From: Dactylellina haptotyla
Lineage: Eukaryota > Ascomycota > Orbiliomycetes > Orbiliales > Orbiliaceae
DNA length: 64,000 nt
NCBI GenBank assembly: GCA_031310005.1
Contig: CM062386.1
Span: forward strand, 992,001-1,056,000
Reading direction: 5' to 3'
Shown here: piece by piece, positions 23,976 to 51,508 of the stretch
Position numbering within the stretch: the first letter of the stretch is position 1
How the letters are laid out: the number at the start of each line of letters is the position of its first letter
Program-made: the position numbers and the translations under genes
The notes under the pieces: model-generated
Told to the model about the DNA's origin: nothing
Database searches by the model: none
Seen by the model: only the letters and a program-made list of their open reading frames with translations

Positions 23976-26906
23976 ATGGCGGACGATTACGACGCAGATT
24001 TGGCAGAAGCCATCAGAAGGTCTCTTCTCGATCAACCAGGCAGTCCGAGCCAAGCCAACGAGAGCACCAACACCAAACCAACTCCTCCAACAGAGGCAAC
24101 TCGAGTCAAGAAAGATGTCAAGAACAAGGTCAAGAAAGAGGGCCGGGGGCCACCAATAATTGTTCTGGATGACAGCAGTGATGACGACCAAGATGATGAA
24201 GAGGCTGTTAAACAGGTTAGTGGCGCCTACCAGACTAGCCCGTTGCGATTCTACAGGCTTCTGGAAACAAAATTTTATGAATCAAAAAACTAGTTTTTAA
24301 TTAACCAACATTCTTCAACTTTTCTAGACTATCAAAAAGGAGGAGCCACAGAGTATAGTCAAAAAGGAGGTAAAACAGGAGGTATCTCGTGATAGAGTCA
24401 AGGAAGAAGTGAAACAAGAAGAATCCGACAAGCAAGAGAAGCCCAGACCCTCAGGCATGCTGAATCTAGACAGAGCTCAGATGGAACAAGAACGACTGGC
24501 TAGGCTGAAACGGAAAACTCCAGATGATAGCCATGTACCGCAAGCTAAGCATGTCAAATCTATAGCTATACCGGGCAATGGTATCAAGAAGGAAGCTCCT
24601 AGGACCTCCCCATGGCTAGGATCAGGGTCCGAGTCAGGATCAGGGTCAGGGTCAGGGTCAGGATCGAACATCGGTGGGAGAAATCCATTTATGACAATAC
24701 GTGATTTACAGAAAAGAGTATCATACTATGTCCCACAACAATATTTGGACGGAGTTGTGAAGAGGACCTTTATTCAGGGAGCTGAGAGAACATCGGACGA
24801 TATAACCCTGGAGGAGATCCTCCAAAAGGTGCGGCTACATCGGGGTTCTTTCGGACAACCCGTTCCAGTAACATTGCTAATGACGTCCGATGGCCGAAAC
24901 AGGATACTCTCCAAACTGCCGTCCTTTCAGCATTTACCTGGGACTTTATGTGGATTTTGGACAAGCTCAAAGTCGGAGAATGTGACCTTGTGCTCGTCGT
25001 CAGTGCTAAGGAGGACGAAGTGGTGTGTATTTAAGACACCACATAAAATGCAACAGCGTTGAGGACAATACTGACGCATTTGGACAAAACCCAGGTTGAC
25101 CACTATCGGAGAAATCTGTGTAACATCCCACGGACGCGTCTTTGCTTCCCAGACATGTCCGGGAATATCAATTGCATGCATTCCAAACTTCAGCTTTTGT
25201 TCCACCTCACCTATCTGAGAGTCGTCGTGCCTACAGCCAATCTGACTCCCTATGATTGGGGCGAAGACATCAGTGGAGGTAGGAGCGGGGGCGTTATGGA
25301 GAATGTTGGTTGCATATCCTTGAGAAACGTGAAACAAAAAGGAAGGCGATCTAACTTGGGGTTATACAGAGCGTTTTTATCATCGATTTTCCAGAATTGC
25401 CAAAAACCTCGATAACAGGGGCATCTAATCCTTCACACACACATTTTTCTAGAGAGCTCTTGCATTTCTGTAAGGCAAAAGGATTGCCTGGTAAGACACC
25501 GAGGATAGTTGTGCTCGTGGATCATACAATCACCCTGCTAATTTCAATGCATGATATACAGCGGACATAATAAAAAAGGTGGATAGCATATATGATTTCA
25601 CTAAAAGTGAGCCTTTAGCATTCATATATAGCATTGGCGGTTCACATCACGGGGAGGACGCTCTCCGAAATGGTGTATGCGGCCTAGCCAAAGCCGTCAA
25701 GAATTTAGGACTGAAGACTACGAAACCACTGGAAGTCGACTATGTGGTAGGTCAGAGCTACTCCCATGTATCTCTCTAGGTTGGGTCGCTAAACCGTTAT
25801 AGACTTCGTCAATTGGTAATCTCAATAAAGAGTTTCTTCTGCGGATATATAGAGCTCTTCGTGGTAAGATCCGATCTTGCGAAAAGTATATCTTTAAATG
25901 ATATTAGGGCTGAGACATGATTCCTTGTTACAGGTGACGAAGGCAAGAAATCCGTCCAGGGCATCCCTAAAAAATACAGCAACCTTCAGCAGACGAATCC
26001 TGAAGATGAAAGCACAGCATCAGAAACTGAAGAAGAAGATGAGAGCGATAACAAGGTCTGGCGAGATCTTCGTGCTTCAACGCGAATATACTTTCCGTCT
26101 CGCCGTACTGTCGCAACAAGTAAAGGCGGACTTGAGGTAACTTCGCGACTTTTTTGTTTTGTTTCATTCTCCTTTGACACATGCAGCTAACCGACCTCGC
26201 TAATGCGCAACATTTACTGTAGAGCGGTGGCACAATTTGTTTTCAACGAAAGGTACGTGCTTTTTAGGATCGTTAACCAGCCATGTGTTAAACGAGAGGT
26301 ACTCATGTGATATCAAAAACCAACCCTAGTGGTTTACTAGCTCATCCTTCCCATCATCCCTCTTGCACGATTGCCAAAGTACTCGTCGTGGTATGCTTAT
26401 GCATAATAAGGTGAGTTTAGCGTGAAAACGAGCGAGGTCAAGCGGAAAAGTTAGTTGGATCCAGAAGTTAGTAACTTTTGCCGGTCCGAAATCTAGATCA
26501 TATTCGTCCGTTTTTCGCGGCCGAAACCTAAAGCTGTCGGCTGGACATATATAGGTAAGTCTAGAGCTCGCGGAACCATTCTCGCATCTTACCCGTGACT
26601 CTGATTCTGGTTGCGCACCGAATAGGCTCGGCAAACCTCAGCGAGAGCGCCTGGGGGAAACTTGTATGGGATCGATCACAGAAAGTATTCAAAATGAGTA
26701 ACAGAAACTGGGAATGTGGTGTCATCCTACCGGTAACTCTGCCGAGCGGACAGGAGCATGCACAGGGAGCAACCGCTGAAGGGAAACCAATACCGGATCT
26801 GGGAGTTTTCACGAACGTCATTCCTGTGCCCATGTCGATGCCTGCTCCACTTCTCTCGGCGGACAACCCACCATGGTATTTCGGCGAGTTGCGCGGGAAT
26901 CCGTGA
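23976..26906 (+). CDS. TDP1: Tyrosyl-DNA phosphodiesterase 1
   Basis: Repairs topoisomerase I-DNA adducts by hydrolysing 3'-phosphotyrosyl links; nuclear. Seen: about eleven exons; clear ones are 23976-24215, 24328-24828, 24903-25022 and 25095 onward. N-terminus: ubiquitin-interacting motif (residues 5-19, DADLAEAIRRSLLD), SUMO-interacting motif (61-71, IIVLDDSSDDD), then a Lys/Glu-rich segment with many Psi-K-x-E sites and a Ser-Gly repeat. Catalytic core: AVLSAFTWDFMWIL, first HxK site CMHSKLQLLFH, VFIIDFPELP, IGGSHHGEDAL, SSIGNLNKEFL, GGTICFQRK, second HxK site GMLMHNK, then GWTYIGSANLSESAWGKL (the GSxNxSxxAWG element). The end is PPWYFGELRGNP. Both HxK motifs are intact, so it should be active. 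Several internal exons were found only by splice signals. Confidence 0.95.
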
Positions 26907-29900
26907 ATGGGGGCCTTATTCTACCGTTTCTTCTTGATACTAGCGATAAGAACTGGGGGTGGAAGACAGCCTAACCTGAATAAATTTAAGGTTCAGTGAG
27001 TTGTCCTCAGTTTTTCATGCAACAACCTGGTCTGGCAGTCACTCAGATTATGCAAGCCGGTCAACGGTCCAAGGGAAAACCCGAGGGGGATGCCTATATG
27101 CCTGCCTCCCTTTTTCCTTTTGAGCTTTTAGGACCTGAAAATTTATTATATCGATGCTTCCTGTTCGTCCGTAGACTCACATCTTTGTACTACTCTCTCG
27201 TTGGAAGATCGTTGGAAAACCGCGTATCGATCGACGTATACCTCATGTACACTCATGCAATTTTAATTTTAGGTAAAAATTCGGCCGCAGGATAGACGTG
27301 ATCTAGAGTGATCTGGCCACGATCACAGCCTCCCACCGGTGCACCTTTTTAAAACAAAAAAAGGAATTCATTGCGAAGTTGCCGTGCTTGCAGGTGAATC
27401 GAGCGCAAAGAATATTTTCGCCTCCCCAATTGTTTTTGATTTGTACCTTTTGATTTTATTTTTGGACGAACCGGTTGAAAAGGAAAAGAAAAAGTATGCG
27501 TAGCCAATGTATTCTCGGAGACAATCGAGATTCTCATTCCATCAGCCTGCCGGTTGGTATTCCGCTTGATGAAATGGTTGTTAAAGAAAGATGACCCCGC
27601 GGGGCAGCTGTAAAATATTTTACGCAGCCCCAGCCTCCAATCTTTTTCCCGTGTTGTCGATAGCAAGCTAGTCTTGTGATAACTTCCTTTTTTCTTTGAT
27701 CTTACGAATTCGAATGGTGATATGCATAGCCTCGGCCGGGACTAGCGTGAGCAGTTCGTCAGGAGGTCGGGTCTCGTTCAAGAAGCTTTGTTGTTCTTTT
27801 TTCCTTTTCGATGTTGTTGTAGTTGTCGTGTCGTCAAAATATCTACCAGGTTTGTGAAGCTCTAACTTGAATAAATTTCGTGATGCATAAATGTTCGGCT
27901 AGCGAGAACTGTGAGTGGGCTTTTCTTGGATGAATTAAGAAAGCCGAACAAAAGCCAAGGCCTAATGGCATTTTTTAACGGAAGTTTTCACTCCGCTCGA
28001 ATATGCACGCAAGCCGGAATTGCAGCTTGATTCGACGTCCGGATTTCCCTGGTTTCATTGTTCTGAATCTCGATCGAATTGTTAGCTAGGTCCTGGTTAG
28101 GCTTGGGAGTCGGGGTTCAAGTTGTGGAGGAAGACCGAGTGTACGTGTTGGAGCTTAAGCGTAGCGATCTATGCAGCTTGTGCACGTCCAGTAAGCATGT
28201 TCTAGCTAAGCACTAGAATAGGGCACAAGAAGGAGTTTCCCTGTCGCCATTAACCGTAAACATTGTGGCCTTGGTCTAGAAAGCAGCTAAACGGGAGGTT
28301 ATGCCTAATTTTGCGTTCCACCGCTGCTAGTATGCAAGTTTTGTGGACGCTCGTGGTTAGCAGTCGGAGACCCCGGAAGGACAAGGGAGCTTGAAGAACC
28401 CACCCTTGGCGTCTTCTGAGGATTTCGAACCGGACGCCGGAGAAGCTGCTGGCGGTCCGAGTTTTTGCTAGAAGGACCAATGAGGGTCTCTGCATATGAT
28501 CTAGAAGGAAGTAGTGTCCGAAAAAATTGCGATTGGGCTTGAATTCTGAGTCGGAGTCAATGCACCACCCATTATTGTTGGTGTGCAGACAAAAGAACCC
28601 ACGACGCAGGCGTTCGATTTATCCTGTAGAAAATTCGAAAATCAAACTAAAAATTAAAATAATTAAAAGGTAGGGAAACTTGTCTCGCGGGTGAAAGGTG
28701 ATGGATGCATGGCCCATAGGGATCGCATTGACCCTGCCAACCTGCTTCCAGCTACTCCGAACATATGCATGCCGTTTGAAGATCCGAAACCTTCTCGAGT
28801 TCTTGAGATATGATCCACTAGCCGCTGTTCCAACAAGGTGCTGAGGGAGGAGAAACAAAGTTACCAGATCAGCTTGAGGCTGTGCCCCATATTGCATGTC
28901 TAGGAACTATATTGTGAATCGGGGATGATGGTGGTTCAGGGAAGGGGAGAGCCAGGGTTCAAACCGGTGTTTGGCACGCTGAACCCTCGACCTCACACGG
29001 GCCTCGAGCCCCATATTCCTGATTTCGCTTGGCTAATGCACCTCATGCGAGTGCAAGCTGAGCCGATGGCTTTTGCAGTCGAAAGGGCAAATGCTCAACT
29101 GTTGCAGCCAGACCCAGATTCCCGGGTACCGAACAATATTATCAACGGATAAGCCCTGTTATACACCAGAAACAGGCGGGTTCAACTCGGGCTAAGCTAA
29201 GGGTTGACATTGGCGAGCTTAGTTCCAGTTGGCCGGGCTTCGAGACATGGAATGTTCCGGTTGGCTGCCAGAGCCAGTCAGCCATCGTGACTTCAACGTA
29301 CGATGCAACGAACAAGCCCCCCCAAGGGCAAAAAGGACCATCCCAGCTGCAAAACCAGGTAGCAATGCTCCGTCAGATTAACAGGAGCTGGAGCTTACCA
29401 ATGCCCTGATTTATCCACTCTCATTCAATATATACTATACCCACTTTAGGTGGGAATACGAAATCAGGCAGAGTCTTTCTGACAACTATGTGGAGACACA
29501 TATCAAAACCAAAATAGCGTGCGCGCCCTCACTCGCGTCGCCCGCGAGATTCGGATATGTCTCAAAGCAATGGGGCCATGGGATTAAGCGGACTCGCAAA
29601 ACCATGCATGGGAGCGATTCGAGCCGCGAAAAGCTAGGCGGACCTAATGTGTGGATCTGGGCGTCGGTAAAATTACTTGGAGGGTGAGATTGTGTCTAGA
29701 GATGTTACACCGGTACCATTTTCTCAACATAAGGAGGCTTCAACTTGTATCGGAAATCAAAAACGTGTCGATGTATGCAGGTAAGAAGCGATGAATTTCC
29801 CGGAGCGTGGCAAGAATAAGAAAATACGACGGATGGTGGGATGGGAATTTTCATCGAAAAGTACATCGGGATCATTGTTTCCTTGATTTTTTGATTTTTT

Positions 29901-32900
29901 TCAGTTCACGGCTATACACTTTAAGGATTTTGTATCCTCAAAAACAACCTAAGGGTTGGCTGTTCTCGGATAAATCGCATCGAATAGCGGAATTCTCCGT
30001 CATTTTACATCATGGCTCATGACTCGGTATTCTGGATATTCTCCTGACTCAGCGGCGGAGCCCGACACCCGATCAGTTCTGTTATCAAGGCCGAGGTGAA
30101 TTTGAGACTAATGAAATCATCTGCTGGTAGCGTATTGCGACATTTGTGCTGTATTCTTGGTTGTGCGTCCTTCTGAGTATGGATAGTCCGGGATAATTTT
30201 TTTTGATAGTCCCAAAGGGAAGGAGGTTGGTGCGTTATTCTCGTTTGAAATTTTTAGCCGTAAACCAGCCAACAGGTTTAACTGTCCGTTAGCAAAGCCT
30301 CAAAAAACATTCCTTACAGAAGGCGAGGGAAAGTCTATCACGAACGAAATATGATTAGCGAGCCGCTTCCCCAAAGGCTACGCTAACCCACGCCGTTTTT
30401 CTGGGTCCAGCAGAGTTTACCGGAATCTTCCACCAGGTGACGATTGGGGGGACTTTGGGGGCGGCCATGTGTTCTTCGGTATGCGTAAATATAGTCGAGA
30501 TTAAGGAAGCCCCTGAGGTGGAGTTCGGTTGAAGGTTTGGCTGCCTCATCGTTGACTGCTTCGGAAATGACAGTATCGAGGTCAGTCCATTTTGAGGCAT
30601 GTTTTCCTTCATCTCCGAGACATTTAGCGGTTCGGAAACCCGATCGAAAGCATAGGTTCCGCTGTTAATGACCACATGGCAATCCAGTCCGTGGGAACTT
30701 GCAAGTCGGCGAATAAGCGATAGGATAACCAATCTTTAGGGCTCAAATCAAGGCCCGAAAGGGAGGATGAATATCTAATTTTCTGTAGGTGGCGTAGTTA
30801 ATGGGAGGTCCATGTAGCCTGGCGATACCGAGAGCGCCACTTATTAGCAAGCACAGCAGAGTGGAGAATGCATTGTCATTCCCTGTTTGACAGAGGGTTA
30901 TCGAAACCTCAGCCTAGTTCGGCCAGGCATTTGTGTTATGCAGATTTTTTTGTTCTTTTCTGGCGGAATTAACCGATATATCCTGAAAGGATTCGTAGGT
31001 CGGAATATTTTCTCTTTCTTTCCCAGACCCCGCTCAGGCGGATGAAGGTAACATGATTCGCCAATAAAACCCTGGCCCGTGGAAGGAATGCCAAATTCTG
31101 CAATCCAGCGATCTGTCTTGGTTTGAGAAAGGAAAAAAAAAAAAGAGAAAGGCCTACATGTGCCGATGCTTCTTTCCAGAGCCCGATTTTAAAACATCCG
31201 CCTTTATTCTCTAATCAGAAGTGATACAGGTTTTTGTTAATTTGATACCTGTCTCGAAAGGGAACTGGCGGCTCCGACGAACAATGCGCATCAATCGAGG
31301 TATCTCTCCGCCGGCAGGTGATTGCTACCAATTTGACTCCCCAGCCCGAGGCTCGAGGCAAAATTGAAGCCTTGGCAAGGGAAAATTGAAGCGTCCATGC
31401 ACCACCAATGTTATTCTTGAACATTGCGACTAAGCCGGCGAGGTGGCTATTTTGGAAATCATGATGGGAGGAGCTTCTCATCAGTTTCTCTTTGTGTTGA
31501 ATTGATATATTAGGGGCGGGTGAATGGTTCATGTAGCAGAGGTATGCTGCCTAAGCAGGTCTGGGGGAGGATGCCAATGCACCCTATCAACCAGGCACGA
31601 GAGGCATGTGGCAGCCCGTCTCGACGTCTCGTTGGTATTGTCCGATCCAGCCCCGAAGGGTTTCATAATAAAAAGCAATTATGCATTGAGTCAGTAGTGG
31701 AGGTTAACGGCAGGCCTGCTGGGCGTCGTAAGTCCGGCCCCAAGTCGAACAAAGACAGAGCGAACAGGAAAGGGTTTGAGGGTTGACGGGGAATGTCATC
31801 TCTCTGTTTCCTTTTTTTTCTCTTTCTTCTGTAGTTTGGGGGCGGAAGCGGAGGAGTGGGTGGTAGTAGAGACTGTGCGTCCGCGTCCCAGGGTAACGGT
31901 AAGCAAAGCAAAGCTAGCCGGCCGGTGTGTGAAGATTGCCCAGGGCAGCTAAAAGGCAGCAATGGCGGGCGGCAGAAAAAATAGGTAAGTTGAACCAGAA
32001 TAATATTAGAAAACGTGAGAAAAAAGAAAGAAATAGGGTGCGATAAAGCCTTGGTAAATCCTGCTATTTGTTAGCTATTCAGTTAGAGAAGAGAAAAAAA
32101 GTTAGCGCAATAGGACTCGATTATGTATAAAGAAATATTCTTTGGCGGGATTGCTTCTTAATAAACCTACTTCCCAAGGGCTCAAGGTGGCCGGGACCAG
32201 GGAAGTTACATTACAGGCAACGGTACAGAAGTGATATTTTTTTTTCTTTTGGTTTTTTTTAAATTTACGCTTTTCTATTTTTCTCAAATTGTACTAAGAC
32301 TTCGGGGGGTGTGTCCGTAGGTCGAACAGTACTTAGTCAAAGTAACCAGTAAACATTGGGGCGCTCATCGACACCACTTCCTCTTGTCTGCCGCTCAACG
32401 CTAGAAGGAGAAAGGGCTAAAGGTTCCATATGTGCGATTGCATCGAATGGATGGCCGACTTTGCGATTTACTTACTTTCTGGCCTGACGATTGGCTTCTT
32501 CCACCAATCCAACGGCTCTTTCCCTTTTCTTTTGAACATTCAACGGACGTCGTCGCGTGTGTGGTAATCCCTAGCCGCATGAAATTCCGATTTTGTCGAG
32601 CCTTAAAAACAACGAAACAAGCTTTGCAGAGACGTTTTGTGGTTGGCTACTCCAACCTCAAAAAATCTGGACGGACATTAGCTGTTGCTATGCAATAGCT
32701 TCAACATCCTCATTTTATACGGCACTTTCTTTTTCCAACCTCCACCCCAGCTGCAGCACGAGACTGCACCTGCACCTGCGTCGGCAAATCAGCTTTTGTG
32801 ACGGCGGGCTCAATTACCCAGAATTGATCCCTTGGCCGGGCCACCAGAGCTGTGGTTCAGTTGCACTGCTGCACTGCTCTCGAAGTTCTCTCTTATAAGG

Positions 32901-34918
32901 ACTTAGAAGCAGAATTCGAGTAGAAAACAAAAGCGAGAAAAAAAACAAAAGAAAAGAAAGAAAAAAAAGGAAGAAAATCTCCGTAGCGATTTCATGTAAG
33001 TCCTCTCAAGTATCACCACATTAGCCTTGCATATACCGGTCTTCCAGAAATCACCTCTCAAGGGTCATACCACGACTGCCGTTTCGTTCCCACCCTTTCC
33101 AATCTTTCCACACCTTCCATGTGTGCCTTTTAATTCTCCTTGAGGCTGCTCTCAAGACCTTATTTAGACGTCAGTCGGAGAAACTTTATGGGTTTGGCGG
33201 TCCGCATCGTATCGTGGTGACTTTCATCAAGTTCCATGGTCGCTTATATGCGTGGTGCTCCTGTCTTAGAGTTTTCGGACCTCGTTTGTAACCATTGCGA
33301 GCGTGGCCTTCTCCCAAGCTTTGTGTATCCACGCGCCTGTGACCTTGATTCGAAGAGCAGGAAGCTGGTTTATTTCTTTCCTTTCGTCGTATGATATTCC
33401 AGAGCAGAGGTCTGTCATACACTCCCACGCACATTTCACTTCCTTCTTTGCGCATGTGCACCAGCTTCCCCAACCACACGCAACATGGACACATGTGAGC
33501 TGTGCTACCACAGAGGCCGACGCTTCCAGTCAATTGCCAATTCTGTATTTTCGTCAATACCCGTGTTGCAGAGAGAGAAGCTGCCGGTCCCCAAAATGCC
33601 TTGAATCCCACACGTATCGAGAGAGAGTTCCCTATAGTGGAAGATAGCTGATCCGATGCTGGCCACCCTTAGACGTATAACTGGTCTCATCAATTTCCTT
33701 TTTCAACGAACGAAGAACCCAAATCTATAACAAGTTCTTCCTCCCTTCGATTTTAATCAACCATCGGGGGATCCCTATGTGCATAGATCTCGCACCTCAT
33801 TCATCTTCGACACTAGGGTTTTCTTTTTTCATCTCTCGATCCGGTATCTAGCTGCTAGGCCTCATCGTAGGGCCGTAAACATTGCAAGACTCCGGACATT
33901 TGAAGTCCTTGGAAAGGACGAACGCGGAAAGAGTTTTAAGGCGGCTTTGCGGAAGTGCCTCATAGTGTCGACATCAGAACCTTAGTTAACCCGGCGTGGG
34001 ATTGAATAAATTTTTTCTCTTTTCCCTGGACAGCAGTTTTTCTTCGCTTGCTTAGTTCACCCAGAGAACTATAACCCGAGAAGTCTATCACCAAGAAGAT
34101 TTAGTAAAGCTTCAAGCCAAAAGGATTACCCAACCCGCTCCTTACAACAAAACAACCACCTATCGTCGCGAGGGCCATAAACTGTCGACGCTTCAAATAC
34201 TTTCCGATTTTTTGTTTGTTTTTAGAAAAAAAACAGCAAGAACACGCTCGTGTGCGATCGATCCACCGCGTGCCAGACCCGTGAGCGGTGCCATAGCCGG
34301 ATCCGATTTTGACTCTTATCTGCTCAGTAGCTGCACTCACACACACACACACCACAGCTTGGGTGCGTGTTTTCAGGACTATCTTGTACATCGAAACGTT
34401 TTGGTTGCGAAGTCGACTCAGATATTGCGTAGTTCAAGCAGCTAGTTTGGGGAGCGAGCGAGAAAGACGGTGGAATAATAGCCTGACCAGCTGATATAAG
34501 TCATCGAACTCCTTGACGGACCAATAGATGCGGTCTACACTCAATCGACATTTCGGGTGCTTGTGCTTGTCTGTCGTTGGGATATAACCGGGAGAGAACA
34601 GGACGACGAGAATCGAATAGCAGGGTGAGTTCGTGCGTGTGTCCCGAACGTGTAGCACCGCGCCGATCAGACCTGAGCGGCGAAAAGACCAGCTATCAGC
34701 TCCGCATCGCGTACACCCCGGCTGACTCTGCACGATTGGTAGCTTGACGAACCATCACCTTTAAACAATATCCAAGTCAACGTTGGCAGTAGACTGGTAG
34801 CGGCAGATACTTGAACATCTCCAACCTTACGGGCCTGTTCACGGGCCTAGTTGCGTGTAGCGCCTTACCAGCTTTCCAGACAGAGGTACAGCAATTTGGC
34901 AACGGCCAACTATATACA
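26907..34918. promoter_or_regulatory. 8.0-kb gene-free region upstream of the WOPR regulator
   Basis: No stretch here yields a conserved protein, and open frames are short and scattered over both strands. Visible items are a 14-bp AT palindrome at 27610-27623, a CA repeat near 34338-34353, several poly(A) runs, and an AAACTTTAT (one mismatch to the Wor1-type site) at about 33182. C. albicans WOR1 is known for a similarly large upstream regulatory region with a long leader; a comparable role here is inference. A lineage-specific gene or long non-coding RNA cannot be excluded. Confidence 0.5.
34338..34353. repeat. (CA)n microsatellite
   Basis: About eight CA units in the upstream region of the WOPR gene, some 570 bp before its start codon. 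Confidence 0.9.
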
Positions 34919-36367
34919 ATGTCGTCTGCAGGGTCTCTGATCCAGCCAACAATATCGAATGTCTTCTGCCAGACAAACGAAGATGCCTTGATGATAGTCG
35001 AACTCATCCTACAACGGCAGCTATTCACAGTGCAGAGGAGGGCTCAAGACAGGGAACGGGCGTCTGCAGTTCAGTCGGGGAACGTATTTGTTTTCGAGCA
35101 CACCGACACCGGTATCAAGAGATGGACCGATGGCGTGCACTGGAGTCCGAGTCGAATTCTAGGGAACTTTCTGTTATACCGGGAGCTATCCAGGCCGTTC
35201 CCACCAGGGCAGAAGAAGAGGGCCCAAAGAAAAAACACCACAAAGGCTCGTCGGCCCCCAAACGCGGAGATGGACGACCCTCATAACCAGTTTCACCCCA
35301 TGGGACTGCCTGATCCGGGAAGGTCGGGGCCACCGGGTGATTCTGATCGCTCGCTTGTTGGCTCGCTAATTGACTCCTATGACTTCAAAACGAACGGCCT
35401 AGTAAAGAAAACCATCAGTATCCAAGACGAAAACAACCGACAATTCCACCTGATATCTTACTATATTCCTCAGGATGTCCTGGACAACCGACTCACCAGA
35501 CCGACAGAAATCTCGGCCTACAACCATATTAGACCAAGGACGACTTTGTTCATTTCGTCTTCTTTAAGGCAACCGACATCAGACATGTCACGAAGGCCTT
35601 CGTTCATGGAGGATGGAGGTCCGGATGCCATGTTCGAGGCTCAGACAGACGAGGACGATGATAATTCGCCCTCAAAAATAGGGTCGTACGGTCGACACGA
35701 TCCGCATCACCCGCATTCCTTCCTCCCGAACAGCTTTTCAGGTGGCCCATCAGACTACAATTATATGCAGTCGCCTGTAAACTACTTCCCTCCAACAGGT
35801 AGTCCGCATGGGTATCCAGCGGGGGAGATTCCGCACCAAAGTGACCCAATGAAGGTAGAAGATTATGACATTCCCCATAATAGCCACAACCCAAGATACC
35901 ACCCTCCATATCCACCGGCCTACACGACAAGTATGAGTAGTGCCCCTGTCAGTGCCCCCTTATCTCTCCCTGCTCAAACAGAAACCATCACTTCACAGAG
36001 TTGGTCTGGAAGCCAGTACTCTGGATTCCAAAATTCGCCTCTTAACACCAGTGCCCTTTCTGGGAGCGCGCCGTATCGATCGACGTATTCGACAGTTGGA
36101 AGTGGCCATTACGATCGGCCGATGGTACCGAGTCCCGCAGCTTCGAACTATAGCTCAGCATCATCAACGGCCTGGACACAGCCGATATACGGCACCCATA
36201 GCCCCCAGCCCGGCCAACAGCAAATGCAAGATCGAGGTCGATTCCCACCGCCAGATAACTTTGTTGGTTGGACTTCTTCGCCACAATCGGCTCCAGGGAC
36301 GAGAACAGGCACAGTAAATGACGAAGATGTCTTGCATCACTATCCTCCTCAGTGGACCGGCCAGTAA
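34919..36367 (+). CDS. RYP1: WOPR-domain transcription factor (Wor1/Ryp1/Sge1 family)
   Basis: Family: fungal master regulators of morphology and virulence (Wor1 white-opaque switching, Ryp1 yeast-phase growth, Sge1). Seen: intronless, 482 residues. WOPRa half (about 12-125): DALMIVELILQRQLFTVQRR, DRERA, SGNVFVFEH, GIKRWTDGVHWSPSRILGNFL and YRELSRPFPPGQKKRA. WOPRb half (about 175-240): LVKKTISI, FHLISYYIPQDVLDNRL. KRWTDG is the threonine-containing kinase-type site known in Wor1/Gti1. The C-terminal half is Pro/Ser/Tyr/Gln-rich and probably disordered. Start: I chose the ATG at 34919. The frame is open upstream to 34811 but only with non-ATG codons. GIKRWTDG and HWSPSRILGNF place it in the WOPR family; the Ryp1 paralog call is less certain than the family. 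It is isolated between 8.0 and 4.3 kb of non-coding DNA. Confidence 0.93.
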   Translation: MSSAGSLIQPTISNVFCQTNEDALMIVELILQRQLFTVQRRAQDRERASAVQSGNVFVFEHTDTGIKRWTDGVHWSPSRILGNFLLYRELSRPFPPGQKKRAQRKNTTKARRPPNAEMDDPHNQFHPMGLPDPGRSGPPGDSDRSLVGSLIDSYDFKTNGLVKKTISIQDENNRQFHLISYYIPQDVLDNRLTRPTEISAYNHIRPRTTLFISSSLRQPTSDMSRRPSFMEDGGPDAMFEAQTDEDDDNSPSKIGSYGRHDPHHPHSFLPNSFSGGPSDYNYMQSPVNYFPPTGSPHGYPAGEIPHQSDPMKVEDYDIPHNSHNPRYHPPYPPAYTTSMSSAPVSAPLSLPAQTETITSQSWSGSQYSGFQNSPLNTSALSGSAPYRSTYSTVGSGHYDRPMVPSPAASNYSSASSTAWTQPIYGTHSPQPGQQQMQDRGRFPPPDNFVGWTSSPQSAPGTRTGTVNDEDVLHHYPPQWTGQ

Positions 36368-39300
36368 ACGGATAGGCCTGTAGTCTGACTGAAAACACGA
36401 AAACCCTTTTCATATCGAATATTCTTCCCTTTCCTCGGCATTCCAGTGATGGTGGTGGTGGCGCTTGCTCGGGTTTCCAAAATTCTAAAAGAAAAAAAAG
36501 ATTAACTTGTGTAAAAGAGGGTCTCTCGTGGGAGAAACGGGTTGCATGACTTTTGATGTAACGTTAGCGTCTGTTGTTTATATTTTTTTGTTATTTCTTA
36601 TTTCTTCTTCTTCCTTTTCCCGCCTCCCGGTTGATGGACATAGAAAGTGTTTTTTCTTACCTTCAGAGAATAATTTAGTGATGATGAAATACAGTTATCG
36701 GACCGTTATAACCCAATTCTCTTGACTAAACAGTTGGACATTGTAAAAACATGTCTTTTTAAATTAAACCTTCCAGTTAAACTTTGAAAGTTTGAGGGAC
36801 TGGCCAATACCAACCGTCTGTGGCTGTACGTGGCAGTAAAATCCATGTATACAGGGGACCCAATGTCGAACGCCTAAGCATCCACGTATATATACAACTC
36901 TGTGCCTTCCTATCATTATTGTCGATTATCCCTGGGTAGTCTCGAACCTAGACCTTCTACTGTACACAGTCCTTGGGGGCTGAAACAGATATGGGAATCG
37001 CAATTCTTTTTCTTTGTGGCCTAGTTATGTAATCTGCGGGAGAGTAGGTAGGCATCCTGGACTGATTCGAGGAACAAGGCATTGTAAACCCCTGTATTCG
37101 ACTACGATTGACGGTTCATTGGGACACAAGGGCCATTTGCAAAACGTATTGGTGTCAGAGCCCGAATAATTACTGTCTGACGGAAGGACATGGTCGCGTT
37201 GGAATCGAGGCTCGTTCCGGTAAGGGCGCTTAGAGGATTTGATATGATATTGACCAAGTAGGAAGGATCGAATAATTGGGCATGTCTAATCTTCTCGACG
37301 GTATAATATTTCGGTATGGTCTAACGACAAGGGCCAAGGGTGAATCGGGAAAGACAGGCTCTTTCTAGGAAAAAAGACTAGATTTATGGTGTTGGGTTTC
37401 CTGCTAGAGGGAGGTATTGGGGCCTGTTTAATGTTAAACGTAGCCTGAAAGTAGTGCAGCGTATGATTGATTATATTCCGCAGCGAGCTGATGGACACCA
37501 GAACATATATTCGAATAATACGCACCTAGGATGACGAAACAAGGATTCTGTTCTTACCGTGCAGCGTTGGCAAAAGAAAAGGGACTTTTAAGTACTTCTT
37601 TGGAGCGGCTCAACCTGCAACCGACACCTCTTACACGGACAGTACAATTAGGCACTCTGGCTGTTCTTGTATCGCATCCCCTTAGTAGGCTCTTTTTATT
37701 ATAGTAATATACCCCGCGAAGAGGCTATTATTATTTTCTTTTCAATCAAGTATACCTTTGATGTTTTGGCTCTTTTGTTTTCCTAAACCGAAAGGCTGAT
37801 AAACTAACTTACTTATGTCCGATGGGCATGGGACTCCAATGGCGGGCCCTCCATTCTCTCAATAGAAAATGTGGGTAGGATGACGCGAAATTTAACCCAC
37901 TTACCTGCATGACAAAGTTCTTCATCGTGTCTACATGCCATTTAGACGATTTGGGGGAGAAAGCTACGGGTTCAATTGTAAGAGCCGAAAAAAGCCCACT
38001 TGTCAAAGAATAACCCTTAATCGTTTTCTGGAGTGCATGTGCATACGCTCTAACGTAACTTAAAAAAAGCATGGCTACTGGCGTCTGGACCATCCGAAAG
38101 TTGACCGCAGACACGCTAGCTAGTGGGTCATAAAAAAAAATTCAAGCGCTCATCTAACCACTAGATCCAAGATCCAACTAGCAGCGGCAGAGAGGGCAAA
38201 GGGAACACCGCCAAAAAACAAAACAAGAGAGTGAGAGAAAATGAAGGGGAAAAAATTCGCTCTGGATATACCGAAAATCCCAAGCGCCAGTTCGCGAAAC
38301 AAATTTTGCAAGGGAATATCAGACGAACGGCATTCGAAATCCCGGGATTTTTTATTTTATTTTTTTTCGTGAGGAGTGTGCACCCAGTTCATGAGCAGGA
38401 AATGGACCCATCCCAGCTAGTCGCTGGGATTGTGTGTAGGTGTACATTAACTGTGTGGTGGTGGTGGGTTCCTTCGCATTCGGGCTATTTTGTACCACTC
38501 CGATTCCAAATGTTGGCGGGATACTTTCGTACCTTTTCCAAAGTTTTTGGAGCTATTTACGCTCCCAAAGCCTGCGAGCTTGGCAAGGGGATCTTTGTTT
38601 TTTTCGGTTTTTTTCTTTTCTTTCTTACCTTTTGATTATTTTAACCATGTTTTAGTGGGTATTCATGCAAATCGTTTTCCAGTTTATGATCGTGTTACAC
38701 AGCTTTCTGCCTGTTGAGTTCCGTTAACTTGACTACTGGGATAAGTCGGAAAAAGTTGAAGGGCGGAAAAAAAAAGAGTTGTGATGAAACCCTCAGAAAA
38801 TTGATCCGAGTGGCCGTGGTTCCGTAAGAATTTTGAAAGAAGTTGGAGTAAATCGAACCGAAAGGAGGTACTCAATTGACAAACTAGACGGGCGGAAAAA
38901 AAAGGAAAATAAGACCTTGCGTTTTTTCCCTTGTGATTTAGAGTCCAGAAGTTTTTCTGGAGTTCTCGCCCAGCGAATGCTTCGATTCCCATTGCCTGAT
39001 ACCTTCCTAGACTAGGTGCATGAACATGCATGAAATCGACGGTGCAACCAGGCTCTCGTTTTTGAAGCGGACTAGCTTGGGCACGGAACCTATCACATAC
39101 ACAAACAAGTCCTGAGGCTTGTAATTGGCGGGATGTGCGGAAAGTGCGTTCACTCATCTAGGTGTGTGCTATAGATTTAATACCCGTTTCGAGCAAGGAA
39201 AAGTAAGAAACGAGATAGAATGCATATTGCATGCGCATTTCGGTTTAAATGGCAAAAAAAGTAGAGGGTCGAAATGAGAAAAGAGGAACAAATAAGCTGA

Positions 39301-40702
39301 TCTTTCTTGGGATACAGCTCTTGAATACGGGCTTTCTTCACATGGGAGCCATTTTCTAGAGTTTACTACCGGTGCACGTGGGCGAGGACCGCTTCTAGAA
39401 GGGCTCTCTCTAAATACTAATGCCAAAATATGAGACAATTCCATATTGATCATCGAGTTGATTGCTACGGAATGAGGTCAAAGAATGTGGGTCTCTCAAG
39501 CCTCTTTTTTTTTTTTCAATCATTCCCAGACAAAACGCCAGAATCTCAGCTAGCCCCTTGATAATACCATGGCAATGGTGGTTGAGAGTCCGGCCTGAGT
39601 CGGGTTGATGGTGGGTGAAGGCAAGGATTAGAGAATGACTAGAAATTTGCCGAAACCCGAGAGGAAAGTATCTTATTGGGAGTGGTGGCCAGTTCGCACT
39701 CGCACGCCGACTTCAAGCGGATGGATTCGTCGACAAAACAAGGATTGTCCTGTGCTGAAGGTCTCCTTCCCAGAAAACCCACCGAGAACTCATTCTGCAT
39801 AGTGTATCTTTCTGGAGCTCACCTTGTTGTGGCCGTTCTTTGGAAGGATTGGATTGTTCAACATTGTTACATTATCGTTTTCAAAACATAATGGCAACAG
39901 AGGACATAGTTAAAATCCGATGATGTCGATAGTCGATAGACGCAACGACTGCCGCGTAGACAATAGGCCAGAGCGCCGGAACGAAATACCAAAGCCAGGG
40001 GATACAGATGAGAACCTTCGCCTAGATAAGATAATAGTTACATTACCATGGCTTGCCTTTCCAGAGGCGGATTTCGAGTGTGAGAATAAGGTTCGACAAC
40101 GTTGTTCGGATCTCAAAACCTTAAATTTAGAGTTTTCGTTAGAAAAAATTTGTTTTGTTAACCGTATTTTAAACTAAACGCCAGCCCTAAGCTCAATCAA
40201 TACTCTGGCCTGCTTAGTTAGTTATTACTACATGCCATTATTGGCTCGGCTGCACTAATCCTCTCCTCTTTACATTCTGTGTAAAATCTCTTCTTTGAAG
40301 GTCGTTGGCGAACGACTTTGGCGATGTCGACACAGACCACGACTATTTGCCGCTTACTTTAGCAACAAAGCCCAAAGGCTGGAAACTTTCCGCTCCTCCA
40401 ACGTGTTTTGCAGCCCAAGACGAAGAAAAAGAAAAAAGAAGGAAGGAATGTAAGAGGGAAAACCGGACTATCCACTTCCGAACTAATTTGCACAGTTGCT
40501 TTTGCTTTTGTACCAGAGGTCACTTTCCTTCTCCGGCCCGCGTCCTTTTTTTTTTTTTTTTTTCATCGTGAAGGACAAAACCCGCTTCCCTGCCAAGACA
40601 AAATATCAACGCTCAGCTATCACGATAAATTTGAGGGTCTCATGACCAAGGATATGATCCCTTCTACGTTACAGGTCTGCATCTAGCTGGTAGCTGGGCA
40701 CA
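36368..40702. other. 4.3-kb gene-free region downstream of the WOPR gene
   Basis: No conserved protein in any frame; open frames such as 38231-38635 are low-complexity hydrophobic translations of T-rich DNA. It should hold the WOPR 3' UTR and the MTO1 promoter. A perfect palindrome AAACTTTGAAAGTTT lies at 36779-36793. Confidence 0.5.
36779..36793. promoter_or_regulatory. Palindromic Wor1-like site (candidate)
   Basis: AAACTTT-G-AAAGTTT, 412 bp after the WOPR stop codon. The published Wor1 core is TTAAAGTTT; each arm here matches it with one mismatch. Autoregulation is a hypothesis only. Confidence 0.35.
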
Positions 40703-43347
40703 ATGTTGGGGACCCGTCTCTCTCGAACTGGTGCTGCTCGGACACTTCGGTGGAGAAATCCTCTCTCATCAGGGTTTTCTACTGCACGACGCAGTTTAGC
40801 CACAAGTGCATCTGAGGATAGGTAAGATTGCGAGGCTCTTTTACCAACAACACCCCCAAAAAAGCCATTCTTTGCGCGGCTGATATCCTTTTGAATATCA
40901 CATTTTAATCCCCTAAAAGAAGCAAAATATGAAACTAACCAATGACGTAGCACTACTGGAGTATTCTACGATGTCGTTGTCGTTGGTGGTGGACACGCTG
41001 GTTGCGAGGCATCTGCTGCTGCTGCAAGATGTATGTCCCATGCCGTTTTTGGCGAACTTGTTGCAAGCAAACAGCGATATCTGACGAGATGCATTTGGTC
41101 AACCAGCTGGAGCTCGGACGGCCCTGGTGACCCAGAAGCTTGCAAGTATAGGAGTTTGCTCCTGCAACCCGAGTTTCGGTGGTATTGGAAAGGGTATAAT
41201 GATTAGAGAAATCGATGCATTGGATGGTCTCTGTGGTCGTCTTGTTGGTAAGGCTGCTGTCAAGCTCATGATCCTACAATCATATCGAATCCTAATCAAC
41301 TATTTTTTTTTTTTTTACAGATAAGGCCGGTAGTCAATTCAGGATTCTGAATCGAAGAAAAGGTCCTGCGGTTTGGGTCCGTGCACATCAACTAAACCTT
41401 AAAGATACTAGATCATGATGTTGATAGAAATGCGCGTCAACAGGGCCCGAGGGCATTGATTGATAGAAAGCTTTACAAAAAGCATATGCAAGCTGAGCTT
41501 GCCAATTATCCCAATCTGACGCTTAAAGAAGGCTCCGTTGCAGACGTCATTATTGACAAGAATGAAGGCTTCCAACAGGATGGTGACGGGCACTACGGCC
41601 AGGTTACTGGTATCAAATTGGAATCCGGAGAGGAAATTTACACCAAACATATTGTGATAACTACCGGCACGTTCCTGAGCGGGGAGATACATATCGGTAT
41701 GACTAAAATAACCCCTAGCTGAAGTATTTCGGAAAGTTCCGCAATGCAACTAACGATACTCCAGGCTTGGACGTATTTCCATCTGGACGCATGGGCGAAG
41801 CCGCGTCTTTTGGGATCAGCAAGTCACTACGCGAAGCAGGTTTCAAGTTAGGTCGTCTCAAGACTGGGACACCACCACGCATTGATGGAAACACTATCAA
41901 TTACAACAGCCTAGAGATCCAATATGCAGATGATCCACCTGTGCCTTTCAGTTATCTCCATGAGAAAGTAGAACAAGAGGTATTGAGACCCGGTTGGCCT
42001 TTTTAGGATGTGGAGAAGTTAACCCCTGGATATAGAAGCAACTTACCTGCTACCAGACTTTCACAACCGCCGAGGGCCATGACATAATCCGAAACAACCT
42101 AGACAAGTCAATACATATTCGGGAAACTGTCAAAGGCCCTCGATACTGCCCTTCTCTAGAATCCAAGATAATTCGGTTCTCTCAGAAAGAGAGGCATGTT
42201 ATTTGGCTTGAGCCTGAAGGATACGATGATAATATCGTTTATCCGAATGGTATTAGTATGACGGTTCCGGCTGACGTGCAAGAAGCCTTCCTTCGTACTA
42301 TACCCGGGCTGGAAAATGCCACAATGACGCAGGCAGGCTACGGTGTGGAGTACGATTATGTCGACCCTCGAAGCCTACGTGCCACATTGGAAACTAAGGC
42401 CATCAAAGGACTCTTCTTAGCCGGACAGATCAATGGAACTACAGGATACGAGGAAGCAGCTTCCCAGGGTATCATCGCTGGAATCAATGCTGGGCTGTCA
42501 GCTAAGAATAAACCACAAATGACGCTCCTTCGCTCCGATGGATATATTGGAATCATGGTTGACGACCTTATTACAAAAGGGGTCTCCGAACCGTACCGGA
42601 TGTTTACGGCAAGATCCGAGTTCAGAATGTCTGCAAGATCAGACAATGCAGATCTACGGCTCACGGAAAAGGGCCGAAAACATGGAGTGGTTGGGAACAA
42701 GAGATGGAACCACTTCCAGAACGAATATGCGATGATGGAGGCGGTCAGATCCACAATGGAAGGCTTGGTACTCAGTGCGCCGAAATGGGTTGAAAGGGGA
42801 ATCGAGGTCTCGGCGGATGCCTTCAAGTATAGCGCATTCGATCTCTTGAGAAAGAATCACCTAACGACGAACTCTTTCTTGGATGTCTTTCCAGAACTCA
42901 GCAAGTTCCCTGAGAGGATAAGAGAAAGGATAAATATCGAAGGTACATATGCGCCATACATCAAACAACAGATGGACGACATACGTCTATTCGAGCGAGA
43001 TGAAAACCTCGTCTTGCCTCCTAGCATGGACTACTCTGGGATCGTTGGGCTATCTTCAGAGGAGAAGGCCTTACTTTCCGCAACTAAACCCGAATCAATC
43101 GGACAGGCGAGAAGAATTGAAGGGGTGAGCAGTTTTCGATCCATCCAAAATTCGAGGACCAAACACTGACTGCAAGTTTTAGATGACACCATCTAGCTGT
43201 TTGATTCTACTCAAATATGCAAACAGACGTCTCCGAGCCCTTAGCTATGCAAATCGAGCCCACCCTCCTGAAGCTGCACAGGAGACTCTACTAAAAACTT
43301 CAGAGACGTCCGTGCTACCGCCACCAACAGGGGACGCCACAACGTAA
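40703..43347 (+). CDS. MTO1: Mitochondrial tRNA uridine-34 modification enzyme MTO1 (GidA/MnmG)
   Basis: FAD enzyme that, with MSS1, installs the carboxymethylaminomethyl group on U34 of mitochondrial tRNAs. Seen: an Arg/Ser-rich presequence ([18 protein letters not shown]), then the FAD-binding motif [66 protein letters not shown] and [49 protein letters not shown] and [21 protein letters not shown] follow, and then the C-terminal helical domain with [25 protein letters not shown]. Eight exons or so; the final one (after the intron near 43123-43183) ends at PTGDATT. The conserved first Cys of the CNPS block is present. It heads a run of three mitochondrial genes. Confidence 0.96.
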
Positions 43348-43708
43348 TTATCATTATAGTAGATAATTGCACGGTATAATACTGTATTATATATCCTTAT
43401 TTTTGCATTCCTGTACATATCTGTATTTCCTTCTTAGCGCTGAAAATTTTACGTCGTCAATCGAATATAGTGACTCCCTGGTTTTCGTGGGACACAGCAT
43501 GTTGATGTCCGGGAATGTGTTGGTGTGATTCTTCCTTTCCTTTGGGCCTCGGCCAAATCCCTACGATGACGTTGAGGTGCACTGTGATCTTTCCACACCA
43601 CAATCATCCCCCACTAACAAACCTTAGCGACAGCGCCGACTTCACGGCGAGGACGAGAACACCGTACGAAGCACCCTCGGGGCGGTTCGAGCACCGCATA
43701 GTCATCCG
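43348..43708. other. MTO1 3' flank / promoter of the FMP32-type gene
   Basis: 361 bp between two tandem plus-strand genes; AT-rich just after the MTO1 stop. No specific element seen. Confidence 0.55.
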
Positions 43709-45291: not shown

Positions 45292-46279
45292 TTATTTGGG
45301 TCGTATCTCTTTGGATGCGGTCTGCGTTTTAGATGCCTCCTCTAAGTATGTACTGACTTGCTCATCTGCGTCCTCATCGATATCTCCATAATCTTCCCAG
45401 TCCTCTTTCGTCTCGTCCCCTGCTTCCAATTCACCAGCTATAGCACTCCCAGCCGCCAGCTGTCCCGCAGTCTCTTGATTGGCGTCGCCTAACTTCCGAT
45501 ACCTTGACACGCATCAACAAATTATTAGTGTCCAAAACTCTTGCATTAGATTATTTACCAATAATACCTACTTGCGCAAACTCTTTTTCCTCTTGCTGGC
45601 CTTTTTCTTCCTCGCAACCTCATTGAGGACGTTATTCCGGCTTTGGTCTCCTTTTTCGATATCTTCTAGTTTTGAGGCCAAAAGTTGCCTCGCTATTTTT
45701 CGGTTTTGCTCTCGGGATCGAGTTTCTTGGGACTTGACCACAATGCCAGTTGGTACATGACGGAGTTGAACCGCGGATGAGGTTTTATTCTTGGGAAATT
45801 AGAGTTAGAGTTATTATATAGACTTCCGAATAGTGCAAAGGTAGTAGAATCGATGGATACCCACAACTTGGATATTTTAATATCTTAATGTTAGCCATCT
45901 TAAACAGAAGTTATTAATAGTTGGAATACTTACTTTTTTGGCCACCTTATTTCATCCAAAATCATTCTATCAGCTATCCAAACTACCAGATATCAGGATA
46001 GTGAATAAGTGTCCTACCAGGGCCGCTATATGCATTCGAAATTTTCCTCCGTTAGAATCTCGCGGACCATTGTGTAATTTCAATGACAAATACTTACCTT
46101 CCTTTGAGGAATTTCTCTTCTATGTCTTCTTCGCTTACAGTTGGTCGTGGTGGCATCTGTTTTTTACCGACTATTGCAGTTGCGTTGAACGGACGAGAAA
46201 ACAAAGCGGGAGCCCTATGATCTCCCGTTCGTATCAATTCAAATGGCGCTCTACCTAATGCTCTTCTAGCAGCGAACAT
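45292..46279 (-). CDS. RSO55: Mitochondrial GGQ peptide-release factor, RSO55/MTRFR (C12orf65) family, with micro-exons
   Basis: Family: small mitochondrial class-I-type release factors that rescue stalled mitoribosomes by hydrolysing peptidyl-tRNA. Model: six exons, 46098-46279 (182 nt), 46018-46025 (8 nt), 45934-45945 (12 nt), 45865-45866 (2 nt), 45572-45789 (218 nt) and 45292-45502 (211 nt). Together they are 633 nt, in frame, coding 210 residues. The N-terminal presequence MFAARRALGRAPFELIRTG is basic. The joined core reads [36 protein letters not shown] in the order exon 1, S/G/P, GGQK, I, then exon 5; this is the canonical GGQ motif. A basic tail (ARKKKASKRKKSLRKYRK) precedes an acidic C-terminus. 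The 8- and 12-nt exons are well supported by flanking AG/GT and conserved residues. The 2-nt exon is needed for the Ile codon but needs RNA proof. Confidence 0.85.
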
Positions 46280-49718: not shown

Positions 49719-51508
49719 ATGGTACTTCGAGCCACATCTACCCTTGCGCGTTGCCTCGCCAAACCAGCCTTCCAGGCCTCCACGCTGGGAGCTCGTGTTG
49801 TTCGGCCAGCGTATCGCCAGCCATTGACCGCAATTCAAACCAGAAAACTGACAACCACTTTCCAACCTCAGGTCAAAGTTCTTGCTGTCTTGTATGATGT
49901 GAGTAGTCAATTGGTTTGCGAAACGGGTTCTAAAGATCGGTATCTGAAATATATGGTGTTATAGGGTGGCAAGCACGCCCAGGATGTTCCAGCTCTGCTA
50001 GGAACCACAGAGAACGAGCTAGGTATTAGAAAATGGGTATGTCATTTCTACTGGACGACGAATACCGTTTTCGATAAATAGGGATAAATGACTGAAATAC
50101 ATCAGCTTGAGGATCAAGGACACACTTTGGTCACCACCTCTGACAAGGAAGGCGAGAATTCAAAATTCGACCAGGAGTTGGTTGATGCTGAAGTTATCAT
50201 CACAACCCCCTTCCACCCTGGTAAGAATATTTGCTTTGTGAATTTGAAGACCCTTTGGCAGCTAACTTCTATATCCTCTAGGATATTTGACTGCTGAGCG
50301 TCTTGCAAAAGCCAAGAAATTGAAGCTTGCTATCACTGCTGGAATTGGTAGATATCCTCGCCACCCTTGATTGATCTGAAGGAGTCCGTATTTACGATAT
50401 CATTAGGATCTGACCATGTGGACCTCAATGCTGCCAATAAGACAAACGGTGGAGTCACTGTCGCTGAAGTCACTGGATCGAATGTCGTCAGTGTAGCTGA
50501 ACGTAAGACTCAAAACCACAAGTAATCAACCTATTCAGTACGTTAACCATGTTCGGATAGATGTTGTTATGACAATCTTGATCTTGGTTAGGAATTTTGT
50601 CCCAGCTCATGACCAAATCAGGAATGGTGACTGGGAAGTTGCCGCTGTTGCCAAGGATGAATATGATCTCGAAGATAAGGTTGTTGGAACTGTTGGTGTT
50701 GGTAGAATTGGCGAGCGTGTTCTACGAAGATTGAAGCCATTCGACTGCAAGGAACTGCTTTACTTCGATTACCAACCACTCAATGCAGCAGTTGAAAAGG
50801 AAATCGGCTGTCGCCGTGTCGAGAGTTTAGAGGAGATGGTTGCACAGTGCGATGTTGTAACGATCAAGTGAGCACTTTTATCGTTGTTTCCAATTGGACT
50901 AAAGAAATGCTAACCTTTGCTTAGCTGTCCACTCCACGAGTCCACCCACGGGTTATTCAACAAGAATTTGATCTCCAAGATGAAGAAGGGTTCTTGGTTG
51001 GTTAATACTGCCCGTGGCGCCATCGTGGTCAAGGAAGACGTTGCCGAAGCCGTCAAATCTGGCCACCTTCGAGGGTATGGTGGCGATGTTTGGGTTCGTA
51101 AATCGACCAATCAGATATAACTAGAGGTTCTTAGACTAATTTGAGAACTGCAGTTCCCACAACCGGCTCCTAAAGAGCACCCACTGCGATACGCCGTGAA
51201 CCCATTCGGTGGCGGTAATGCCATGGGTACGTACTTAATAACCTGCAAATTCAGATTCCTAAAATCTAACAATTTTGAAATATAGTCCCACATATGTCAG
51301 GAACCTCCCTCGATGCTCAGAAGGTAAGTGTTTATGCCCCGAACGCAATTAAAGTAAGCAGCTAGATACTGACGGTAAATAGCGATATGCCGATGGTACC
51401 AAGAAAATCCTCGAAAGCTATCTTTCCGGCCGCCACGACTATCAACCACATGACCTCATTGTCCACAAGGGAGACTACGCGACCAAGGCATACGGTCAGC
51501 GCAAATGA
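49719..51508 (+). CDS. FDH1: NAD-dependent formate dehydrogenase
   Basis: Oxidises formate to CO2 with NAD+ (EC 1.17.1.9), removing formate from one-carbon and methoxyl metabolism. Seen: about ten exons with clean junctions. The N-terminus ([19 protein letters not shown] through [10 protein letters not shown]) looks like a mitochondrial presequence; many fungal FDHs lack one. The catalytic order is [133 protein letters not shown] and [20 protein letters not shown]. It ends [20 protein letters not shown], which holds the catalytic His. The Rossmann motif has Val where Ala is usual (GVGRIG). The C-terminus is AYGQRK. Confidence 0.96.

Follow-up and report, generated by a model that had tools for sequence, protein, structure and literature searches.

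Three consecutive micro-exons very probably encode the catalytic GGQ loop of a predicted mitochondrial rescue factor in Dactylellina haptotyla

Exons of one to a few nucleotides have been described before. In Fusarium, CYP621A contains a 1-nt exon covered by 18 transcript reads (Nelson & Syed 2026, PMC12940212), and the available part of that article also cites exons of 2-5 bp in Arabidopsis, Drosophila and humans. A further 1-nt exon with transcript evidence is found in Arabidopsis APC11 (PMC4674806). Very small exons can also be neighbors: adjacent 5- and 12-nt exons are described in rice Os08t0562700 (PMC8831610) and in the gene for a Zygnema M1 peptidase (PMC11096116), and human RPS24 harbors consecutive exons of 3, 18 and 22 nt, alternatively spliced in varying combinations (PMC11162997). 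Among mitochondrial proteins, the factor of the C12orf65 type is known in yeast as Pth3 or Rso55, and its GGQ residues are required for activity, according to the accessible text of PMC7940416.

Here we describe a gene of Dactylellina haptotyla, an Orbiliomycete fungus of nematode-trapping affinity, in which three constitutive micro-exons in a row, of 8, 12 and 2 nt, very probably encode the GGQ loop of such a rescue factor, as judged from the sequence. The gene lies on the minus strand, at 46279-45292 of the 64,000-nt stretch of DNA that was analyzed (hereafter the window), in a genome of 39.8 Mb and 11 contigs. Its six coding exons of 182, 8, 12, 2, 218 and 211 nt are separated by five introns of 72, 72, 67, 75 and 69 nt, all with GT...AG ends. 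The phases add up over the whole gene, as the initial annotation had stated, giving 633 spliced nt and a protein of 210 aa that runs from MFAARR... at the N-terminus to ...EIRPK at the C-terminus. With slashes for the predicted joins, the transcript would read ...AAAGGAAG/CGGCCCTG/GTGGCCAAAAAA/TT/AATAAAACC. The features are as follows, intron strength being a percentile rank among the 163 GT-AG introns called by an HMM gene finder, this gene's five among them:

46098..46279, minus strand: exon 1, 182 nt, from ATG to KG plus AG, phase 2
46026..46097, minus strand: intron 1, 72 nt, GTAAGT...TAG, strong (96th percentile)
46018..46025, minus strand: micro-exon 2, 8 nt, CGGCCCTG, completes Ser, then Gly, Pro and the first base of Gly
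45946..46017, minus strand: intron 2, 72 nt, GTAGGA...AAG, weak (4th percentile)
45934..45945, minus strand: micro-exon 3, 12 nt, GTGGCCAAAAAA, GGQK plus the first base of Ile
45867..45933, minus strand: intron 3, 67 nt, GTAAGT...GCTAAC...CCAAG, fairly strong (72nd percentile)
45865..45866, minus strand: micro-exon 4, 2 nt, TT, completes Ile
45790..45864, minus strand: intron 4, 75 nt, GTGGGT...CTAAC...CCAAG, weak (6th percentile)
45572..45789, minus strand: exon 5, 218 nt, begins NKTSS
45503..45571, minus strand: intron 5, 69 nt, GTAGGT...AAG (20th percentile)
45292..45502, minus strand: exon 6, 211 nt, runs to TAA

Each of micro-exons 2-4, all of at most 15 nt, has its own AG and GT and is flanked by complete introns, and the CTAAC branch-like sequence noted earlier is indeed present in introns 3 and 4, on both sides of the 2-nt exon. 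Two introns lying 2 nt apart resemble the twin-intron architecture of fungi, as far as the available text of PMC12403724 describes it, but a stwintron, in which nested introns, the inner one breaking up a splice signal of the outer, leave no exon between them, is extremely unlikely here: introns 3 and 4 each possess a donor, a branch sequence and an acceptor of their own. The stwintron was rejected on a further ground, as removal of the whole 144 nt leads, with unshifted reading, at once to a stop and a product of 68 aa. Between 45503 and 46017 of the window, four of the gene's five introns end in AAG, an acceptor that is rare in this genome (15 of the 163 called GT-AG introns in 264 kb, those four included); the chance of this excess is about 2e-4, for an observation made post hoc. 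A search of the genome with introns 3 and 4, very common words being skipped, returned their own locus and no copies, so an introner-like origin of both is unsupported.

The initial annotation had assigned the protein to the mitochondrial release factors. The family assignment stands: an RF-1 domain (PF00472, E=1.9e-25) spans residues 48-144 of the 210-aa protein and is its sole Pfam match at E 0.001, and the best PDB matches are 7a5h and 2rsm (89.7 and 81.3 bits), C12orf65 and its homolog, both of which we take to belong to the MTRFR family. The best RF1 structure reaches 53 bits and ArfB/YaeJ about 26, which places the protein closer to C12orf65 than to RF1/RF2 or ICT1-ArfB; in the NCBIfam scan, all matches fell below the curated cut-offs. 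There is no codon-recognition domain, and the RF-1 domain is followed by a basic C-terminal extension, KKKASKRKKSLRKYRK. These two traits are hallmarks of MTRFR-type proteins. As to function, the protein appears to rescue stalled ribosomes and not to be a release factor that reads stop codons. We consider that the gene is a nuclear one for a predicted mitochondrial stalled-ribosome rescue factor of the MTRFR/C12orf65 (yeast Pth3/Rso55) type. It is single copy according to a genome search, which beyond the gene itself hit only a paralog, a release factor whose GAGGQ lies inside one uninterrupted 333-aa frame. Among the matches listed, the best named protein relatives are from Orbiliales, for instance Arthrobotrys conoides and Orbilia oligospora.

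The micro-exon path is unique in its sequence. A listing of stop-free GT-AG paths with up to four introns of at least 40 nt each contained 558 paths; 64 of them encode GGQ, eight encode both GGQ and NKTSS, and a single one encodes the full conserved core. When the pattern [ST]GPGGQ[KRNH][IVL] was required before NKTSS, with up to five introns of at least 45 nt each, exactly one canonical path was recovered, giving SGPGGQKI, and the 8-, 12- and 2-nt pieces of the initial annotation, each with AG before and GT after, all lie on it. The same pattern yielded no path in any of 5000 dinucleotide shuffles, nor did any of 2000 anagram motifs on the real sequence (6719 anagrams being possible). An intact GGQ core was found solely on the micro-exon path. 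The 2-nt exon taken alone is weaker: when the 144-nt stretch is shuffled 5000 times, an Ile-making AG-T[TCA]-GT at the allowed distances arises in 66 shuffles. Flanking introns that both score at least as high as the real introns 3 and 4 appear in 0/5000 shuffles, and a summed score at least as high as the real one in 2/5000.

A homology-blind view of the locus was obtained with a plain HMM gene finder having no minimum exon length, trained by repeated decoding on 200 kb of the same genome; it was used in place of simpler intron-collection scans, which yielded 10, 10 and 17-29 introns with decoys making up about 1/7 to 2/5 of the hits. Trained with the window included (264 kb), it called 74 genes; of their 169 introns, 163 are GT-AG, and intron length has a median of 67 nt and a 95th percentile of 133 nt. 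Only four of its 114 internal exons are of 15 nt or less, namely the 2-, 8- and 12-nt exons of the rescue-factor gene and one of 11 nt. Training without the window gave 56 genes, 111 introns and 74 internal exons, and this version decodes exactly introns 1-5 of the rescue-factor gene, hence calls the 8-, 12- and 2-nt exons, with the proviso that it is not perfectly clean because the starting codon table included ORFs of the window. It picks the alternative start ATG at 46156 for exon 1 instead of the one at 46279. The HMM favors the 2-nt exon only modestly. Given a gene here, the posterior of any 1-2-nt exon is 0.495, and that of the TT exon rises to 0.889 once the ends of exons 3 and 5 are fixed in frame.

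If 1-2-nt exons are barred, the HMM loses 3.8 bits and turns to a 38-nt intron together with a 44-nt exon (45871-45828). This exon and one of 23 nt (45883-45861) are the two longer forms that exon 4 could take, each placing an insertion inside the GGQ loop. Either form has a canonical path free of stops, paths devoid of 1-2-nt exons account for 0.107 of the conditional probability, and some Orbiliales protein models (P0002, P0005) have insertions at the loop. We nevertheless regard a longer exon 4 as unlikely: the 44-nt exon requires a 38-nt intron, whereas only one of the 163 called GT-AG introns is of 38 nt or less, the path with the 23-nt exon has an HMM posterior of 1e-4 given the flanking frames, and K followed by Ile stands directly before NKT in all 164 motif-matching homologues among the 177 described below.

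Outside the window, a single one of the 74 internal exons called is of 15 nt or less; this 11-nt exon lies at 4583-4593 (plus strand) of L017, in a gene for a YTP1-like membrane protein (PF10355, PF10348). Within the window, a tRNA-modification gene of the MnmG/GidA family is located at 41486-43528 (plus strand), separated from the rescue-factor gene by about 1.8 kb; the HMM apparently called it as two pieces, and the family match comes from the second. A D-2-hydroxyacid dehydrogenase-family gene with seven HMM-called introns occupies 50088-51508 (plus strand), and we presume that it is perhaps an NAD formate dehydrogenase. The longest gap between HMM-called genes in the window, about 17 kb, extends over 24293-41486.

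The homologue set consists of 177 proteins (the best 120 of 3938 matches and the best 120 of 2545, overlaps being counted once), and the motif GPGGQ.INKT.[SC] is present in 164 of these, always with K then Ile, while 13 deviate. A third search with a 97-aa piece, aimed at transcript-derived fragments from Orbiliales (best 120 of 1058 matches), added 102 new rows to the count, 100 of which match the motif; the other two, P0253 and P0269, have substitutions in it that leave GGQKI and its spacing unchanged. Altogether, the 279 homologues comprise 264 that match, 13 that are disrupted and two that are substituted. Judged by name, no Orbiliales protein other than P0010 was recognized among the best 120 of 1058 matches of the third search. 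P0010 is Orbiliales-like and its source is labeled lgn, which we take to denote the Logan assemblies. Its motif is seamless, with K then Ile, and its sequence passes from exon 5 into apparent intron 5; it may represent a transcript, or genomic DNA of a species devoid of these introns. The Ile of P0010 also speaks against a reading in which introns 3 and 4, with the TT between them, are spliced out as a single 144-nt intron, the frame being mended in translation or by slippage on an A-run (CC-A8-TAAAACC). The junction of exons 3 and 5 would indeed create a run of eight A. Such slippage would, however, provide K or nothing at the conserved Ile (by-eye reading), and 144 nt corresponds to the 96th percentile of intron length, six of 163 introns being as long. 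Together with the immediate stop upon unshifted reading, this makes a single intron very improbable.

All 13 disrupted proteins (P0001-P0009, P0011, P0027, P0035 and P0104) are annotated Orbiliales models, from eight species, the order having been checked for four of these. This amounts to a systematic annotation fault at the motif, and since 11 of the 13 models are devoid of GGQ (P0005 and P0104 keep it), anyone relying on these proteomes would in most cases take the enzyme to be catalytically dead. In 12 of them NKTSS is present but preceded by foreign residues; the exception, P0104 of A. musiformis, has SGPGGQKI followed by a jump into exon 5, a join that the chain does not readily account for. 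P0004 and P0007, which seem to continue into the intron-1 donor or beyond it, are uninformative on exon 4. The presence of SGPG in P0001, P0002 and P0006 indicates that exon 2 is included, and the Met that follows is consistent with an intron-2 donor GTATGG.

The models of O. oligospora bear on exon 3. Before NKTSS, P0006 and P0008 have AARK, and P0009 and P0011 have RRPE followed by N or K, and these residues fit two frames of one 12-mer. Just 2 of the 192 AARK-encoding 12-mers satisfy the other frame, and their third frame gives GGQK+A in one and GGPK+A in the other; as the four models come from four different strains, the argument assumes a shared exon. On that assumption, they would fit a 12-nt exon (GGQK+A) with the same ends as exon 3. 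In P0009 and P0011, codon read-back by eye places Gln-Val (CAR GTN) right before NKTSS, which would fit a CAAG acceptor, then a 2-nt TN exon, then the junction; P0011 would in addition read through a 62-nt intron 3 starting with GTAYGC. O. javanica P0003 (SKV) would likewise fit AG, TN and the junction. The models of both species are compatible with AAG before the 2-nt exon.

The micro-exon layout thus seems common to related Orbiliales, their exon structure being deduced from misannotated proteins, not from DNA, and it was probably present in the common ancestor of these Orbiliales. The weak splice sites of introns 2 and 4 could suggest a decaying or unexpressed locus in which the chain is a relic, but a gene that is single copy, whose protein is conserved (75% identical to P0010 in alignment A1), whose motif is intact after splicing and whose relatives show the same frame deficit makes this highly doubtful.

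Short fungal introns are thought to be recognized as units, by intron definition. If each intron of about 70 nt were recognized singly in this way, exon size would hardly be limiting. Only 2 nt separate the acceptor of intron 3 from the donor of intron 4, too little for both sites to be readily occupied together, and splicing should therefore be sequential. As introns 1 and 3 are stronger than the weak introns 2 and 4, the former two would be removed first, an alternation based on four introns. Their early loss would make each tiny exon the end of a longer one, and introns 2 and 4 would be cut last.

Among the seven combinations of skipped exons 2-4, six lead to an early stop (61-96 aa). If a single intron is retained, whichever of the five it is, translation ends at 61-141 aa. 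Skipping of exon 3 alone keeps the frame, giving 206 aa with KGSGPVNKTSS and GGQK deleted. These results bear out the earlier statement that skipping the micro-exons destroys the frame or the GGQ, but the idea attached to it, that splicing acts as a switch on activity, is unsupported; constitutive, intron-defined splicing suffices to explain the chain. Since only the exon-3 skip keeps the frame, a switch has one mechanically possible form. It would be a gate on splice fidelity: the exon-3-less, GGQ-less protein of 206 aa would retain the remainder of the domain along with the basic tail and, under splicing stress, act as a decoy occupying stalled mitoribosomes without releasing the peptide. 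We consider such a gate quite unlikely; if real, it would tie mitochondrial rescue to the quality of nuclear splicing, and the layout would have been kept in Orbiliales for that reason.

Should transcripts confirm the constitutive chain, a fungal spliceosome would build an active site out of three pieces that total 22 nt, the smallest being 2 nt long, and such assembly would seem to extend over a fungal family. With splice sites 2 nt apart, the chain would also offer a small, naturally occurring system for testing intron definition and splicing order.

Several described systems resemble the chain in part. The GGQ-domain mitochondrial rescue factors Pth3/Rso55 and C12orf65/MTRFR are of the same kind, but here the GGQ region is split by four introns, and gene structure is not among the traits described in the available text on Pth3/C12orf65 (PMC7940416). 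As in Fusarium CYP621A, an ultra-small fungal exon falls in a conserved protein motif, was found through a frame deficit and was missed by automated annotation, the CYP621A exon being common to many species of a genus; CYP621A, however, has a single 1-nt exon with reads, as far as the article is available, whereas three micro-exons across a catalytic motif are predicted here from sequence alone. The 1-nt exons of plant APC11 and VPS55 are likewise frame-essential, conserved and absent from reference annotations, but they are single exons, in plants, supported by RT-PCR sequencing and RNA-seq (PMC4674806, PMC8831610). The earlier remark that a 2-nt exon is near the lower size limit is fair, although published 1-nt (PMC4674806, PMC12940212) and 2-5-bp exons mean that it is no record. 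Neighboring micro-exons in one gene are shared with rice Os08t0562700 and the Zygnema M1 peptidase (PMC8831610, PMC11096116), and three micro-exons between two ordinary exons with RPS24 (PMC11162997), but for none of these do the available parts of the sources describe a catalytic motif cut in three with a 2-nt member. Trichoderma virens Xlr2 also has a functional micro-exon in a filamentous fungus; its inclusion is glucose-dependent and alters a transcription factor, whereas the rescue-factor chain is read as constitutive (PMC11121469). Among the literature matches listed (titles and starts of abstracts, with few subscription journals), we found no micro-exons in this gene or in Orbiliomycetes, and no catalytic motif spread over three successive exons of at most 12 nt each. 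Exons of 1 nt are known, as are micro-exons in runs; a single active site covered by three successive exons of this size appears to be new.
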